NCBI RefSeq assembly: GCF_011043775.1
Contig: NZ_JAAKXY010000001.1
Coordinates: 124,001 to 188,000, forward strand
Direction: 5' to 3'
DNA from: Natronolimnobius sp. AArcel1
Lineage (GTDB): Archaea; Halobacteriota; Halobacteria; Halobacteriales; Natrialbaceae
DNA: 64,000 bases
A program made the position numbers and the translations under genes. Below the pieces are notes generated by a model that saw only the letters and a program-made list of their open reading frames with translations, did no database searches and was not told the origin of the DNA. This document shows, piece by piece, positions 2,707 through 55,003 of the stretch (position 1 is the first letter of the stretch; every line of letters begins with the position of its first letter).

Positions 2707-3950
2707 AACTCGACGTCAACGCACTCGGGACGTTCTACCGAATGGCCCGAGAGGGTGCTGGGTTAGCCGCCGGTCGGCTCACTCATATGACCGATGTCGA
2801 GACGCGCGTCGGCGTCACGAAACTCAACTTCATGCGCGGGCACGAACTCCGCCACGATTTTGAGGACGCTGGCGAGAAGGTCGGCGTTCGCGTCGAACTC
2901 AGCGGTGCGATCGACGGCTACTCCGTCATCGTCTTCGACCGCGCAAACGCCTTGCGCATCGTCGAAACGCTCGTCGAGAAGTCCGACGCAGAGGAGTTCG
3001 ACGAGATGAACCGCAGCGCAGTCACCGAAGTCGGCCAGATTATGAACAACGGGTTTATTGATGGCTGGGCCGACGTTCTCGAGACTGTCATCGACGTTTC
3101 GACCCCCGAGTTCATCAAAGGCGACTCCGCAGAACCGTTCCTCGGCGACATTGAAACGGCCTCAGGCGATGAACTCGCCCTTCTCTTTCAGAGCCAGATC
3201 GAAGCCGTCGGCACCGAAGTCGGCTTCAGTCACTATCTGTTCCCAACGCGGGACTCGATGGCCGATCTGTTAGAGCAACTGCGAGCAAGCAACGGCATTG
3301 AGTACGACAAACTCGACGGCTTCGACCGCATGGCCGAACGCGGTGCCGAAGAGATCGCCAAAACGGCGACCACGCTGACCGGCATCGAAACCAGCGTCGA
3401 CATCCGCCGGCTGAATTTCGTCTCGCTCGAGGCGATCCCCCAGCAGGTGCCAAACGAGAAACTGGTCGGTGTCGCCTTCGAATTTGAGGGCACGCCGAGT
3501 GGCTTTTTGCTCTTCTTGTTCGACGAGGAGTCGGCCGATGAGATCATCGATGCAATGGTTCCGTCGGGTACGGCGTCGGGAGACGACGACACGGACGGCT
3601 ACGACCAAATGGGCCGCAGCGCGATCACTGAACTCGGAAACATCATGGCCAGTGGCTTTCTCGACGGCTGGGCAAACGTCCTTGATACGACAATCGACCA
3701 CTCGACACCGGAGTTCATCCACGACATCGGTGCTGCAGCCGTCGACCCGGTCGTTATCCGACTTGGAGAAAATCAAGAGTTTGCGTTCGTCTTCGATACG
3801 GTCATCACCGCCGACGGCCGAGAGTTCGACTGTGAAGTGTACGCCATTCCCGACGAATCCGACCTCGAACGTGCGCTGAACGACCTCGATGTCGAACGAA
3901 TCGAGGAGACGCCGACGACAGCGGACTTCCAGCAAGTGAACAACACATGA
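2703..3950 (+). CDS. cheC: Tandem-domain CheC family protein
   Basis: The 415-residue protein carries two full CheC domains, roughly residues 1-200 and 205-395. The second active helix in domain 1 reads RSAVTEVGQIMNNGFIDGWA, and in domain 2 RSAITELGNIMASGFLDGWA. Domain 2 keeps the Glu-x-x-Asn pair, whereas domain 1 has Gln in place of Asn, suggesting one domain is catalytically weak or a scaffold. Known haloarchaeal CheC paralogs interact with CheD and with archaeal CheF adaptors; which role this copy has cannot be read from sequence. It overlaps cheC upstream and cheD downstream by four bases each. Confidence 0.9.
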   Translation: MKLDVNALGTFYRMAREGAGLAAGRLTHMTDVETRVGVTKLNFMRGHELRHDFEDAGEKVGVRVELSGAIDGYSVIVFDRANALRIVETLVEKSDAEEFDEMNRSAVTEVGQIMNNGFIDGWADVLETVIDVSTPEFIKGDSAEPFLGDIETASGDELALLFQSQIEAVGTEVGFSHYLFPTRDSMADLLEQLRASNGIEYDKLDGFDRMAERGAEEIAKTATTLTGIETSVDIRRLNFVSLEAIPQQVPNEKLVGVAFEFEGTPSGFLLFLFDEESADEIIDAMVPSGTASGDDDTDGYDQMGRSAITELGNIMASGFLDGWANVLDTTIDHSTPEFIHDIGAAAVDPVVIRLGENQEFAFVFDTVITADGREFDCEVYAIPDESDLERALNDLDVERIEETPTTADFQQVNNT

Positions 3951-49399: not shown

Positions 49400-50146
49400 C
49401 TACGGGTTCGGTTTGACCCCGAATCGCTGATCGACAGCCTCTCGAACTCGCTCGAGGACGACCGGATTGTCGCTTGGCCGGCCAACACTCACTGCATCAG
49501 CGCCGTACTCGACGTACTCACGGACGGTCTCATCGTCGCGAACGCCGTTGTTGGCGATAATAAATAGATCAGTCGCGTCCGCAACGTCGGCAACCACCAA
49601 TTCGGAGTCCATCGCATCGACATGAACGAACGTTGCGCCCGCCTCCTCGAGTCGCTTTGAGAGGGCTGCAAGGTCGACACCAGGAACTTCGGCTCGAACT
49701 TTGACGCCGGTCGTCACCCCGGTCTCGGCAGCGGTTTCGACGTATGCACAGAGCCGGTCGTCATCCTGAAGCAACGTCTCACCGCAGCCAACGGCACACA
49801 GTTCGTCCTGTCGGCAATGGGCGTTGATCTCGAGGAGGCCGTCCCGATCACGACAGACTCGAGCGGCGTCGCTGATCGGGCCGACAGTCGCACTCCGGAC
49901 ATTGAACCCCGTCTGAATCGGTACGTCTGCGAGTGCCTCCAGTTGCTCGTCGATGAATGTGAGCGGGTCGTCCGGAAGGAACTCAGTCCGGTCGCGCGCG
50001 ACGAGGTCGCGGGCCGCGGCTCTCGAGTCCGCATCGAGTGCGATGCCGCCAAGGATGGCCGCGCCGGCGTAGTCGGCACCTGCTCGAGCCCATTCGGCGT
50101 CTGCTTCCCCGCTGAGGCTGGCGAGTGCGAGCGGTGGGTGGAACAT
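49400..50146 (-). CDS. Dus-like flavin TIM-barrel protein next to cofD
   Basis: A 248-residue TIM barrel related to tRNA-dihydrouridine synthases. Features are an N-terminal LASLSGEADAEWARAGADYAGAAILGG, ENAHC-like EINAHCRQDELCAVGCGETLL, conserved KVRAEVPGVD and C-terminal FIIANNGVRDDET and ADAVSVGRPSDNP. The barrel is shorter than bacterial Dus and has no tRNA-binding C-terminal domain. It overlaps cofD by one base on the same strand, so a role with F420 is plausible; it may be an F420-linked or archaeal flavin oxidoreductase. Confidence 0.75.
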   Translation of the reverse strand: MFHPPLALASLSGEADAEWARAGADYAGAAILGGIALDADSRAAARDLVARDRTEFLPDDPLTFIDEQLEALADVPIQTGFNVRSATVGPISDAARVCRDRDGLLEINAHCRQDELCAVGCGETLLQDDDRLCAYVETAAETGVTTGVKVRAEVPGVDLAALSKRLEEAGATFVHVDAMDSELVVADVADATDLFIIANNGVRDDETVREYVEYGADAVSVGRPSDNPVVLERVREAVDQRFGVKPNP

Positions 50147-51138
50147 TAGCTGGCGAGGTCGATCGCTTCATCGACCGCACGGGCAACGCGTGTTGCGTCT
50201 TCCGGCGAGTCGATTGTAATATCCGTCTGGATGGTCGGTCGGTCGAACTCGACGTCGTCGCCGTCGTCAACGATAAACACGTCCGCAAAAGGATAGGCGG
50301 TCGCCAGTCCGTGCGTGTTCGGTTCAGCGTTGACCGCTTCCATCAGATCCTCGGCGGGCCCCGAGAACGCTTCGTCACCCAAAAACGGCGAGACAGCGAC
50401 GACGGTTGTCTTTGCGAGTGCGTCCGCAAATCCTGGCAGCGCGAGCATCGGTCCGATACTCGTCACCGGATTCGACGGCCCGATTACGACCGGTCCCTCG
50501 AGTGCCTCGAGGACGCCGGGTGCGGGTGTCGCGTTCGAGGAGCCCCGGAACTCGACAGTTTCGACGTCGGGCTCACCGCGGTGGCCAACCCAGTATTCCT
50601 GAAAGTGCATCATGCCTTGGTCGGTGTGGACGAGACTGGCGACGGGGTCGTTGCTCATCGGCAGGAGTGAGACGGAGAGATCAAACGCGTCCGCGAGCGT
50701 CTGGGTTGCGTCGACTAGCGTGTTCCCCTGATCCAGCAGACTTGTGCGCGTGAGGTGGACGGCCCGGTCACGGTCGCCAATCGTCATGAACTCGGCGATG
50801 CCGGAGAATCGCCGCCAGCGCGCGAGTCGCCGGCCAGCGGTCTGTTTCTCGTCGGGCAGATACTGCGGTCCCTCGGGTAGATCCGCGGCGGCGGCGAGAT
50901 CCATTAGCGCCGAGTTCGTCCGGTGTGTATCGCCGGCGATCCCCCACCACGTCTCGCGGTCGAGGACGCCCCCACCCTGAAAGAGCAGCGTATCGACGTC
51001 CGGCGAGACGAACAGCCCACCAAGCTCGATGTCGTCGCCGGTGTTGGCGACGATTGTCGTCTCCTCCGGCGAGAATACAGCCCCAGCACCGTCTAATAGC
51101 TTCGGCGTTCCCGTACCCCCGGAGAGGAAGGTTACCAT
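50146..51138 (-). CDS. cofD: 2-phospho-L-lactate transferase CofD
   Basis: CofD joins the lactyl/enolpyruvyl phosphate unit to the deazaflavin Fo in coenzyme F420 synthesis. The 330-residue protein begins with the nucleotide loop [19 protein letters not shown] and continues with [36 protein letters not shown] and the conserved [18 protein letters not shown]. Length and motifs are standard. It is translationally coupled to the Dus-like TIM-barrel gene (one-base overlap) and lies just before the AT-rich island. Confidence 0.94.
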
Positions 51139-51484
51139 ACGCTAGACTCTCGGCTGAAGATGTTTAATGACTTTTGGCTCAGGAGAGTAACCACCGATAC
51201 ACCAGAAATTCCCATTCGACATTATTCCACAATCACAATGCTTGGGGTAATGTGTGGGAGAATATGTGGATTAATACCGATATAATTAGAGATCTAGGAA
51301 AATGGATCTCAATAGCATAGAGGATATTGAATGTTTGGCTCGATGTCCATACTATTGGGTATTTGGCAAATAACACCGTTTTGCTGTTTTTGTATGTGAA
51401 TATCAACACAAATTCATATATAGTGCATACATTCATACATGTGTGAAATACTAAAATAAATATAAGAACCAATGGCTACTACCA
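51139..51484. other. AT-rich non-coding left part of the island
   Basis: Base composition changes sharply at about 51170 from GC-rich to AT-rich. No frame has support; a 79-codon minus-strand frame at 51233-51472 is Phe/Ile/Tyr-rich and is only an effect of composition. It ends with the promoter of the protease at 51456-51467. Confidence 0.5.
51456..51467 (+). promoter_or_regulatory. TATA-like box of the out-of-frame protease gene
   Basis: ATAAATATAAGA is ~18-29 bases before the ATG at 51485 and fits a leaderless start at that codon, which begins the Tat-like signal. Confidence 0.5.
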
Positions 51485-52377
51485 ATGGATATGGGTGATG
51501 AAAAGCACTACCCAACCCGGAGAACTGCTCTTAAAGCAACTGCTGCACTCGGTTCAATGATCGAATTGAAGACGGCGAAGACGAGCGTAGTCTAAATACA
51601 ATTACAATCGACACTTCTGAATTAGATGGAGATATCCAAAGCGAGTTGGATATAACAATTCCGGAACAGTATCAGGGACTTAATGTTGATGCAGAGTTAG
51701 TCACCTCTGAGAAAGCATGTGTGAATCGAACAACATTTGATCCGGTTCCAGGAGGCGTTGCAATGAATGAGCCACCAAATGAATCCGGTACCACTTGCTG
51801 TCGTGTAAATCATGACGGGTTTGGAGACCACCTAATGCTCACTGCAGATCACGTAATACCGGATGGGGAGGGTGCAACGGTTTATCAGGATTCAAACTTC
51901 TTTGGAACAGCAACCTCATATGGTTCGGAATATTTAGACTATCGGCTTGTTGAAAGAGAACGTTCTGGCATATCTATGGATTGTACTGTTGAACATGATG
52001 GTGTCAACGAAGAATTCCACGGCCATGCAACAAATATGGAGGCACTTGATCACGATGGTGAAACAATCTATAAAACCGGTATCTCAACAGGGTATACTAG
52101 TGGGGAATTGGATATTCTTGATGATGACTTTGCAAATGTCGGGGCTGAGGCTGCTTCAGGTGATTCAGGTGGACCTCTATTTTATTATGAGGACTTTCCT
52201 CATCCGGTCGGAACAGGTGCGGTTATAGTTGGTATGACTATCGCAACATTAACTACAAATGATAGCATTGAATGTGCGGGCGAAGAAAGACAGTGGGGGC
52301 CTGGAACGACAATTACCCGAGCTGATGCAATAGCAGATGATGATGACGACATTATGTTTGACGGATGTGATGTCTAG
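51485..52377 (+). pseudogene. Trypsin-like serine protease with frameshifted Tat signal
   Basis: Two frames together make one gene. The first (51485-51595) reads MDMGDEKHYPTRRTALKATAALGSM and then stops; it has a twin-arginine signal start. The second frame, open from ~51555 to 52377, carries the protease: His in MLTADHVIP, Asp in SEYLDYRLVE, nucleophile Ser in EAASGDSGGPLFYY (chymotrypsin fold, D-S-G-G-P). The break is inside the hydrophobic signal core. Either a deletion has killed export, or the sequence has an error, or frameshifting is used. Codons are AT-rich unlike the neighbours, as in a transferred gene. An in-frame ATG at 51646 would make only a signal-less protein. Confidence 0.72.
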
Positions 52378-52649
52378 AAGACACTTATAGAATCCCACAT
52401 ATATTTCTACCCAGACAATAATTCTGGGAAATTATTTCGTATTAGCCAGGATTACTGTATTATGGCCGATCGTGATTGTACAGTCCATTCTCTTGTGAGT
52501 GATACAGTTTGCTGTAACAATTCACCGCTACGATCGCAGGACAGTCGAGATGGTACCGGAAATGGCTTACTGCGGTTCATATGAACGAATCGCTTTTGGT
52601 TATATCCATGACCCCAATATTTTTGTGATATTGTGATAAACATTCTATT
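52378..52649. other. AT-rich right part of the island
   Basis: About 270 bases with no supported gene. AT-rich sequence continues to ~52640 and includes the promoter for the secreted protein (weak TATA-like sequence ~52620-52645). Confidence 0.45.
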
Positions 52650-53345
52650 ATGAACCGTCGGACATATCTTGTGGCCGTGGCTGGTAGCAGCAGCCTCGCA
52701 GTTGGAGGACTCGTTGCGGCCCATACGCAACAAAAGTCGTCTCCAGAGATAGCAGAAGATCCTCCTGAGGACGCCGAGCGACAAATCTCGATCGAAGACG
52801 TTGGGTCGATCCCCGACGAATCGCCGGTCGCGTTCGACGTGGAAGTCGACGATCCGTGGATCACGCCGTCCTCGACCGCGACGGTCGAGATTACGACGAC
52901 GAACAGGGACGATCGGTCACACCAGGTCGACGCCGCATTTTTGAAGGGAGCGAGCGCCGACCGGAGCGACCGCGGAATCGTCGTCTACAACCACCGGGCT
53001 GCGGATTTCGAGGTCGACGAGTACGTGCCGCCGTGTTTCGCCGAGGACGTGGACCCAATCGTCTGGACCTCCGAGGGCTACATCGACGAGGACGTGGACC
53101 TCAACGACGTCGACCCGGCTGAGGAGGACGTCGGCATCATGTTCACGATGGAACCAACGCCGCAGGATCGGTTGGGACCAGGGGAGTCGCGGACGGAGCA
53201 GTTTATCGTCGCGGACGATCCGCTCGTTGACGCGTGTTTTCCGCCCGGAACCTACGAGTTCGCGGGCGAGGACCTGGCGTTCGAGGTCGACGGGGCGTCG
53301 GTCGACGTTCGCCTGACGTGGGAACTTACGGCCGAGTCGGTCTGA
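52650..53345 (+). CDS. Secreted acidic protein
   Basis: A 231-residue protein with an N-terminal signal, MNRRTYLVAVAGSSSLAVGGL, with twin Arg and a hydrophobic core. There is no lipobox Cys, so it is probably secreted or held by the signal. The mature part is acidic and beta-rich, with two isolated Cys (in PPCFAED and DACFPPG). No family is recognised. The gene sits directly right of the AT-rich island but its own codons are GC-rich from about codon 30, so it seems native. It converges on the next gene. Confidence 0.75.
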   Translation: MNRRTYLVAVAGSSSLAVGGLVAAHTQQKSSPEIAEDPPEDAERQISIEDVGSIPDESPVAFDVEVDDPWITPSSTATVEITTTNRDDRSHQVDAAFLKGASADRSDRGIVVYNHRAADFEVDEYVPPCFAEDVDPIVWTSEGYIDEDVDLNDVDPAEEDVGIMFTMEPTPQDRLGPGESRTEQFIVADDPLVDACFPPGTYEFAGEDLAFEVDGASVDVRLTWELTAESV

Positions 53346-53355
53346 GAATGTCCGA

Positions 53356-54909
53356 TCAGTCGCCGATCCAGTCCGCAAAACTCCCCTCGAGTAGGGTCTC
53401 GCGCTGTCGGTCCACATAGGTCCGCTGCATCGTCGCGATTGCCTCCTCGAGCGAGTCCCCGTCCTCGAGTGCCGCGTGGACGTGCTCGCGTTTCCAACTC
53501 GCGGGCGTGACGCCCTGTCGAACGCGACGCCGAAGCGGATAGAGATACTTTGCGGCCTGTTCGTCGGTCAGCCCCCGATTCGTCAGACCGTCTTCGGCGT
53601 GTGCCAGTAGATCCTCGTAGATGTCGAGCGTGTCCGTGGTCTCTTTGCCGTCGTTCGTGATCCACGTCAGGTCTGCCTCGAGGCCATCGCGCATCGCGGC
53701 GTAGAAGTTCTCGCGGGCGAGTTCCCAGTCGAGTTCGTGGACCGGATGCTCGAGACGGGTCAGGCTCTCGAGGAGCCCGGCGAAGGCAGCGAGGAAGGCC
53801 GTCGAATCTCGCACCGTCGGCTGGGCGGGGATCGGACGGAACTCGATGCGGGCGTTTGCCGCCGAGCGGGTCGGGCCGCCAAAGACCGGGCGAACCCAGC
53901 GCCAGTAGGTGCCGTGTTTCTCGCGGAAGTGCGGGAACTGATCGTCGAAGCGCTCTCCCTTCTCGACTGGCATCGGGACAATGGTATCGTCGTCGGCGAC
54001 GCGGTCGACCGCCTCGTGGACCGACTCGAGGTCGTGAGGGAATCGGACCTTGCCTTCGCCCGTCGTGGGATCGTTCAGGACGGTTTCGAAGACGCTGATG
54101 CGGTTTTCCATCCAGCTATCGGCGAGGATGTCCTCGGGTGTTGCCTCGTCGTCGTAGAGATCCGCAGGGAAGAACGGAGAGTTGACGCCGAGTGCGAGCA
54201 GCGGGCCAGCAACGCGGACGGCGTAGTTGAAGTACGTCGGCAGATCGATTGCGTGGGCCACCTGATAGTGAGGCTGGATCGAGGTGATGAGACTCTCCGG
54301 CATCACGGTCTCGGCCTCGAGCGAGACGTGTGGCGCATCGAGGTGCATCCCGGCCGATTGGGCTTGGTCCGTGTTGGCCATCGCGTGATAGCGCGCGGAG
54401 TCGCTCATGTTCGTCGCGATGCGAATCGAGCGCTCGCTGCCGTTGGCGTCGTCCGCTGGTCGTTCGATACTGTCAGTAAGATACGTCGTCGCCGACTCGC
54501 CTTCTGGCGGGATGGTCCACAGGCCGTCGCTGACCAGTCGCATCCGCTCGGATTCGGTTACCCTGAGCGCCGTCTGCAATCGGGCTTTGACCTCTGATTC
54601 TTGTGCCGCGATTCCGTAGGCGTTCAGCGGCTGTGGACTCGTTGTCATCTCGGCGTTGTGCAGCCCCAGTTCCTTCTCGAATCCGATCAGTTCGAGCAAG
54701 CGACGTGGCACCCGCCGCAGCGTCGCGTCGTCATCTTTGATCGCATAGAACTCGTACTCGAGGCCGACAATGGCTTGCGGATTGTCGAACACCCCATCTT
54801 CGATGGCGTCTTTGATCACGTCCGCATCGGCCACGGCCCGGTCTCGGAACCCGTCGGCATCGACCGAGAGGACGTCAGCGACCCGCGGCGCAAGTGCTCC
54901 CTCTGTCAT
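53356..54909 (-). CDS. Glutamate-cysteine ligase-like (GCS2 family) protein
   Basis: A 517-residue ATP-dependent carboxylate-amine ligase of the GCS2 family. Active-site features are IVGLEYEFYAIKDDD (Glu metal ligands), QSAGMHLDAPHVSLE, HYQVAHAIDLP and ARIEFRPIPAQPT. Haloarchaea use gamma-glutamylcysteine as main thiol, made by a shorter GshA; this longer version may use another amine. The ATG at 54909 is chosen; a GTG at 54978 would add 23 residues. It ends 10 bases from the stop of the convergent secreted protein gene. Confidence 0.7.
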   Translation of the reverse strand: MTEGALAPRVADVLSVDADGFRDRAVADADVIKDAIEDGVFDNPQAIVGLEYEFYAIKDDDATLRRVPRRLLELIGFEKELGLHNAEMTTSPQPLNAYGIAAQESEVKARLQTALRVTESERMRLVSDGLWTIPPEGESATTYLTDSIERPADDANGSERSIRIATNMSDSARYHAMANTDQAQSAGMHLDAPHVSLEAETVMPESLITSIQPHYQVAHAIDLPTYFNYAVRVAGPLLALGVNSPFFPADLYDDEATPEDILADSWMENRISVFETVLNDPTTGEGKVRFPHDLESVHEAVDRVADDDTIVPMPVEKGERFDDQFPHFREKHGTYWRWVRPVFGGPTRSAANARIEFRPIPAQPTVRDSTAFLAAFAGLLESLTRLEHPVHELDWELARENFYAAMRDGLEADLTWITNDGKETTDTLDIYEDLLAHAEDGLTNRGLTDEQAAKYLYPLRRRVRQGVTPASWKREHVHAALEDGDSLEEAIATMQRTYVDRQRETLLEGSFADWIGD

Positions 54910-55003
54910 ACTATCTCCGAGTGCGAGCGCGAACGCCTTGAAAGCACTCTCTCGGTGTGCCGGTTGGCGAACCGTCACACCCGCTCAAGGCCAGCCACCC
55001 GAA

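Follow-up and report, generated by a model that had tools for sequence, protein, structure and literature searches.

The window, by which we mean the whole 64,000-nucleotide stretch of DNA that was analysed, carries an accessory insert at 51180–53358, recognised by its composition and by comparison of neighbouring genes, between two conserved genes on the minus strand. On the left is cofD, encoding 2-phospho-L-lactate transferase (50146–51138; TIGR01819 at 2.1e-106), which is present in 59 of 61 genomes; on the right is a glutamate-cysteine ligase-like gene (53356–54978; a weak Pfam GCS match below the cut-off), present in 57 of the 61. The region 51181–52649 has a GC content of 41.3%, compared to 59.2% for the window, and the lowest-GC 800-bp segments of the window fall here. 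The second gene of the insert (52650–53345, plus strand) has a twin-arginine start (MNRRTYLVAVAGSSSLAVGG) and is GC-rich (62.5%), unlike the adjoining protease gene. Its relatives are patchy, with matches in nine of the 61 genomes, its own included, and NCBIfam, Pfam, PADLOC and PHROGs gave no match for it at the thresholds applied.

The interval between cofD and the glutamate-cysteine ligase-like gene is a recurrent insertion site. Both neighbours lie close together on one contig in 36 of the 61 genomes, a count that includes one genome (G027) with a gap of 52; in 21 of these 36 the interval is empty, with a gap no longer than 300 bp, and in the other 15 it is filled, with 0.98–4.5 kb. The nearest genome, from the same genus, is approximately 91–92% identical on both flanks and has a different 4.3 kb between them, with no blastn match. 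That interval (G001:C1, approximately 450.4–454.7 kb; L065) encodes an SMC-like ATPase with a PADLOC LmuB match at 1.3e-19. For Haloquadratum, the part of the study drawn on here describes similar cases: inserts that have been swapped, deletions located at short direct repeats, and pseudogenes lying in regions of odd composition (PMC3119063).

Two plus-strand reading frames make up the protease locus. The frame at 51485–51595 encodes a twin-arginine (Tat) start, MDMGDEKHYPTRRTALKATAALGSMIELKTAKTSVV, and ends at a TAA stop at 51593–51595; the resulting fragment (RRTALKATAALGSM...) has 36 codons plus the stop and is cut off inside the hydrophobic core of the signal. A TATA-like AT-rich stretch, read from the sequence at 51454–51466, lies approximately 20–30 bases upstream of ATG 51485. 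A leaderless promoter for this ORF is only plausible, the TATAA-like stretch sitting in DNA that is 41% GC throughout 51181–52649. The protease reading frame extends from 51535, after an upstream TAA stop (51532–51534), to 52377, where it ends in TAG (52375–52377), and is displaced by two bases from the 51485 frame, which is equivalent to −1. As far as 51800, the protease frame has possible start codons at 51646 (TTG), 51721 (GTG) and 51763 (ATG). By alignment to relatives, it contains the surviving C-terminal part of a pro-region (SLNTITID...IPEQYQGLNVD..., 51589–51738) followed by a chymotrypsin-like serine protease domain that starts at DPVPGG (51739–52374). The preliminary description of this DNA had placed a Tat start in one frame and a protease with intact His, Asp and Ser motifs in another, and this is confirmed: the former occupies 51485–51595 and the latter runs in the −1 frame to 52377, in place of the single reading frame expected of a family member.

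The catalytic residues of the protease half are encoded at 51850–51852 (His, in LTADHV), 51937–51939 (Asp, in YLDYRLV) and 52165–52167 (Ser, in GDSGGP), all three in the conserved context that characterises the family. His corresponds to profile column 185, which is H in all 34 sequences with a residue there; Asp to column 217, D in 33 of 34; and Ser to column 308, S in 33 of 33, the window being counted in each case. A profile built from 19 relatives, with the window left out, matches the protease frame at 6.4e-39, and hence this is not a chance ORF. Conserved columns of the catalytic domain are kept at 17 of 21 positions in the window protease and at 71–100% in 28 others; two of the four missed columns are cysteines that are also absent from certain relatives. 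GC content by codon position in the protease half is 58/43/30%, which we read as a coding pattern.

In the PDB, streptogrisin B (2.8e-12) and alpha-lytic protease are both matched by the family profile built with the window included, the alignments covering the protease domain from roughly the DPVPGG position onwards and taking in the H, the D and GDSGGP; the window protein alone has no relevant PDB match, neither of these proteins being found. NCBIfam and Pfam return sub-cut-off matches only for the protease half, Pfam Trypsin_2 scoring 20.8 bits against a cut-off of 27.6, and structure prediction for the protease half with three relatives gave a pLDDT of 27.5, which is uninformative about the fold. 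Pfam did not match the family's pro-region in any of three members, PHROGs had no match for three proteins, and PADLOC had none for both window proteins. Alpha-lytic protease needs its propeptide to reach the active fold, according to the portion of the source consulted (PMC3352829), and by analogy the pro-region here may act in the same way.

Relatives of the protease half are sparse at close range. As a query against its own genome (E 0.01) it found no second copy; matches occurred in five of 100 genomes at E 1e-5 and in 21 of 392 genomes of the order at E 1e-3, its own genome being included in both counts; within the family to which the genome belongs, four of 125 genomes match, again including its own. 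The best identity of any relative to the window protease is 38%. The sole match among plasmids was WP_158059253.1, a hypothetical protein on a Halorussus halophilus plasmid, and there was no relative of the protease half in phages, viral contigs or the first scan of genome contigs; a second contig scan with a narrow alignment of relatives returned three named loci. With the 19-relative profile, matches at E 1e-8 occur in at least 190 of 392 genomes, counting distant paralogues. The wider family is thus common, yet the window gene has no close relative in the genomes searched. One fetched locus (L021) was dropped, because the frame read, of 821 residues, was not homologous. A literature search aimed at haloarchaeal trypsin-like Tat-signal serine proteases yielded no paper, and one on Tat signal peptides with pseudogenes and frameshifts in archaea listed no archaeal-protease paper by title.

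Four further family matches in the same genome below E 1e-4 are separate genes. One encodes a free-standing pro-domain protein, two are intact paralogues at a greater distance, each having twin arginines and a pro-region, and the last is a distant paralogue (L030, E 8.7e-6) without a twin-arginine start in the part read. A weak own-genome match on C9 (E 0.07), which contains a stop, was not recovered at E 1 in its frames.

The 21 relatives found through the protease half, after exclusion of L021, share a common plan: a Tat start, a pro-region of approximately a hundred residues with a VPxxWxxH-type motif, an LPxxxxG motif, and a DPVPGG-like start of the protease. To quantify spacing, 37 fragments besides the window were aligned to the profile and four were skipped for a missing anchor. 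In all 33 relatives with both anchors, the distance from RR to LP is 103–145 residues (median 110); in the window it is 140 bases, or 46.7 codons, and the VPxxWxxH-type motif is absent. The 33 include three genes from the window's own genome, one encoding a pro-domain only (L027) and two more distant paralogues (L028 and L029). Loci from L034 onwards were found with a full-length profile, which favours full-length members, but the 20 of the 33 that were fetched with the protease half alone are free of this bias, since they were not selected for possessing a pro-region, and they give the same distance of 103–145 with a median of 111.

Hence, 169–295 bases (approximately 170–300), or about 190 at the median, are missing from the window, equivalent to 56–98 codons; if nothing else changed length, the missing segment would be 3k+1 bases long. 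Lost with this segment are the last part of the hydrophobic core, the cleavage region and the bulk of the pro-region, including VPxxWxxH. The uncharged run after RR is nine residues (ATAALGSMI) in the 51485 frame, compared to 12–28 in the 33 measured relatives, in which twin arginines followed by at least 12 uncharged residues define a complete Tat signal; the locus retains the arginines only. Furthermore, none of 82 frame joins made in the script had an uncharged run exceeding 11 residues over the same measuring length, so a frame join never reaches the shortest run of any relative. Given this, and the 169–295 bases gone, neither a one-base error nor a ribosomal shift can explain the break. 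The preliminary description had rightly put the signal in another frame, but in placing the break in the hydrophobic core it understated the damage, given the additional 56–98 absent codons. The comparison with relatives that it proposed bears out the frame break and points to a deletion of approximately 170–300 bp, rather than a one-base indel, as its cause; even if a single missing or extra base were found, which was to have overturned its reading, the core of the signal and the bulk of the pro-region would still be absent. With no close intact relative (best identity 38%), we infer the deletion from distant relatives rather than seeing it directly, and its putative junction on the plus strand, where signal-like letters stop and pro-region-like letters start in the −1 frame, is placed only approximately by their alignment, at 51555–51590.

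Defects are not confined to the window gene. Three of the 21 relatives are broken, each at another place: L017 has a stop within the twin-arginine motif, L003 a frame break upstream of Ser, and L019 a disrupted middle; L013 is cut by the end of its contig, while L079 and L081, outside the 21, are also broken. Distinct lesions in distinct genomes fit the loss of a dispensable gene and not a conserved recoding signal, although some genomes are incomplete drafts and a few lesions could be errors. Six partial profile matches were read, among the matches listed. Both RR and a long pro-region are present in L082 and L083. In L079 and L081, RR and a pro-region can also be read, but each gene is divided between two or three frames; L080 starts near the end of its contig; and in L078, from a 66%-complete draft (G086), neither a Tat start nor a pro-region can be recognised ahead of the protease. 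With L078 and L030 as exceptions, the Tat and pro-region plan is general, not universal, in the wider family.

Free-standing pro-domain proteins are encoded in the window's own genome (L066:1499–2236, minus strand, on G000:C4) and in L017 (approximately 3050–3581, plus strand). These have a Tat-like start, a VPxxW region, no protease, an acidic linker and a C-terminal hydrophobic tail, for which the L066 protein has a PGF-CTERM match below the Pfam cut-off. The L017 gene has a family protease approximately 600 bases away, one of the broken members. Such proteins could be inhibitors, or folding helpers acting in trans.

We consider the locus very probably to be a deletion pseudogene of an acquired, streptogrisin-like (S1), Tat-exported pre-pro-protease. 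The ancestor would have been an exported pre-pro-protease of the streptogrisin or alpha-lytic kind, and its gene would have arrived with the AT-rich accessory insert between cofD and the glutamate-cysteine ligase-like gene. A deletion of approximately 170–300 bp (about 190) would then have fused the first half of the signal, out of frame, to the last part of the pro-region, taking out the remainder of the hydrophobic core, the cleavage region and that portion of the pro-region which carries VPxxWxxH. From ATG 51485, translation would now yield a dead peptide of 36 residues. No active exported enzyme is expected, because the protease half is left without a proper start, a signal or a complete pro-region; that an intact ancestor preceded the deletion, and that activity was lost with it, is what the sequence suggests. 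The protease half contains no stop and no visible decay beyond the deletion, and the deletion may therefore be young. Of the recent loss proposed in the preliminary description, the loss is supported by the spacing deficit relative to relatives, and it may also have been recent.

The intact catalytic residues, and a frame that stays open for 243 codons from TTG 51646, would allow the protease half still to be made from an internal start such as this TTG and to work inside the cell without a signal. This is unlikely: all 33 of the measured sequences are Tat-type with a pro-region, the first in-frame ATG (51763) falls after the conserved DPVPGG start, and no promoter has been shown for an internal-start ORF. 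L030, which lacks a twin-arginine start, indicates that Tat-less proteases of the wider kind may exist, and together with L078 it takes slightly more weight to this alternative and slightly less to the pseudogene. Were it true, an exported zymogen would have turned into a cytoplasmic enzyme; that the deletion fixed such a new protease, signal-less, mostly without its pro-region, and folding and working intracellularly from an internal start, is if anything more doubtful. An assembly or sequencing error, with a segment lost from what is really an intact gene, might be entertained for a draft genome of 22 contigs, but is very improbable here, since the locus lies inside an 833 kb contig, approximately 190 bp is too much for a base-calling error, and the sole repeat in 51140–52700, an imperfect 18-base direct repeat at 51644 and 52506, is away from the junction.

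Two explanations offered in the preliminary description would retain a functional gene, and neither is supported. Programmed −1 ribosomal frameshifting would join the two halves, which do lie in the 0 and −1 frames, and archaea have a known example of programmed −1 frameshifting in fucA1, according to the part of that report used here, which also gives X-XXY-YYZ as the heptamer form described for it (PMC8211752). However, no in-frame X-XXY-YYZ slippery heptamer occurs in 51485–51595, and the joined product, which should equal the full-length homologues, is still short by 56–98 residues, among them the last part of the hydrophobic core and VPxxWxxH, a gap beyond repair by any frame change; we give this scant credence. 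Phase-variable export, switched by a repeat tract or an inversion, is suggested by the position of the frame break within the signal and is the least credible of all. There is no homopolymer above three bases in 51520–51600, no inverted repeat in 51140–52700 and no repeat of either orientation at the junction, so that the locus has neither the repeat tract nor the invertible segment by which phase-variable genes are recognised; a change of frame could not restore the missing pro-region, and the genome showed no second copy of what was lost, the four other matches below E 1e-4 being separate genes. Lacking a long homopolymer, a heptamer or an inverted repeat, the locus supports neither switching nor recoding.

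The window locus is most probably a case of ordinary gene loss. It illustrates how a Tat start beside an intact protease frame can mimic recoding or phase variation, a question that the spacing in relatives settles, and it has drawn attention to a family of Tat-exported proteases in haloarchaea whose pro-region is distinct and of which several members are broken. Among known systems, fucA1 of Saccharolobus solfataricus is likewise described, in the part of the report used here, as an archaeal ORF pair in the 0 and −1 frames (PMC8211752), but the window has no slippery site and its joined product is not full-length. The likeness to Haloquadratum walsbyi, as far as the cited portion of that work goes, lies in a deletion in accessory, compositionally odd DNA and in a relative that carries unrelated inserts at the corresponding site; there both alleles were seen in two strains, whereas the window locus is known from the short allele alone (PMC3119063). 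Streptogrisin B and alpha-lytic protease (S1) align with the family profile over the protease domain, including H, D and GDSGGP, but are bacterial, and the window protein alone matches neither. WP_158059253.1 of Halorussus halophilus has, like the window, an RR start, an LPxxxxG end to the pro-region and a protease domain with His, Asp and Ser; it differs in having 114 residues from RR to LP, compared to the 46.7 codons, spread over two frames, of the window.
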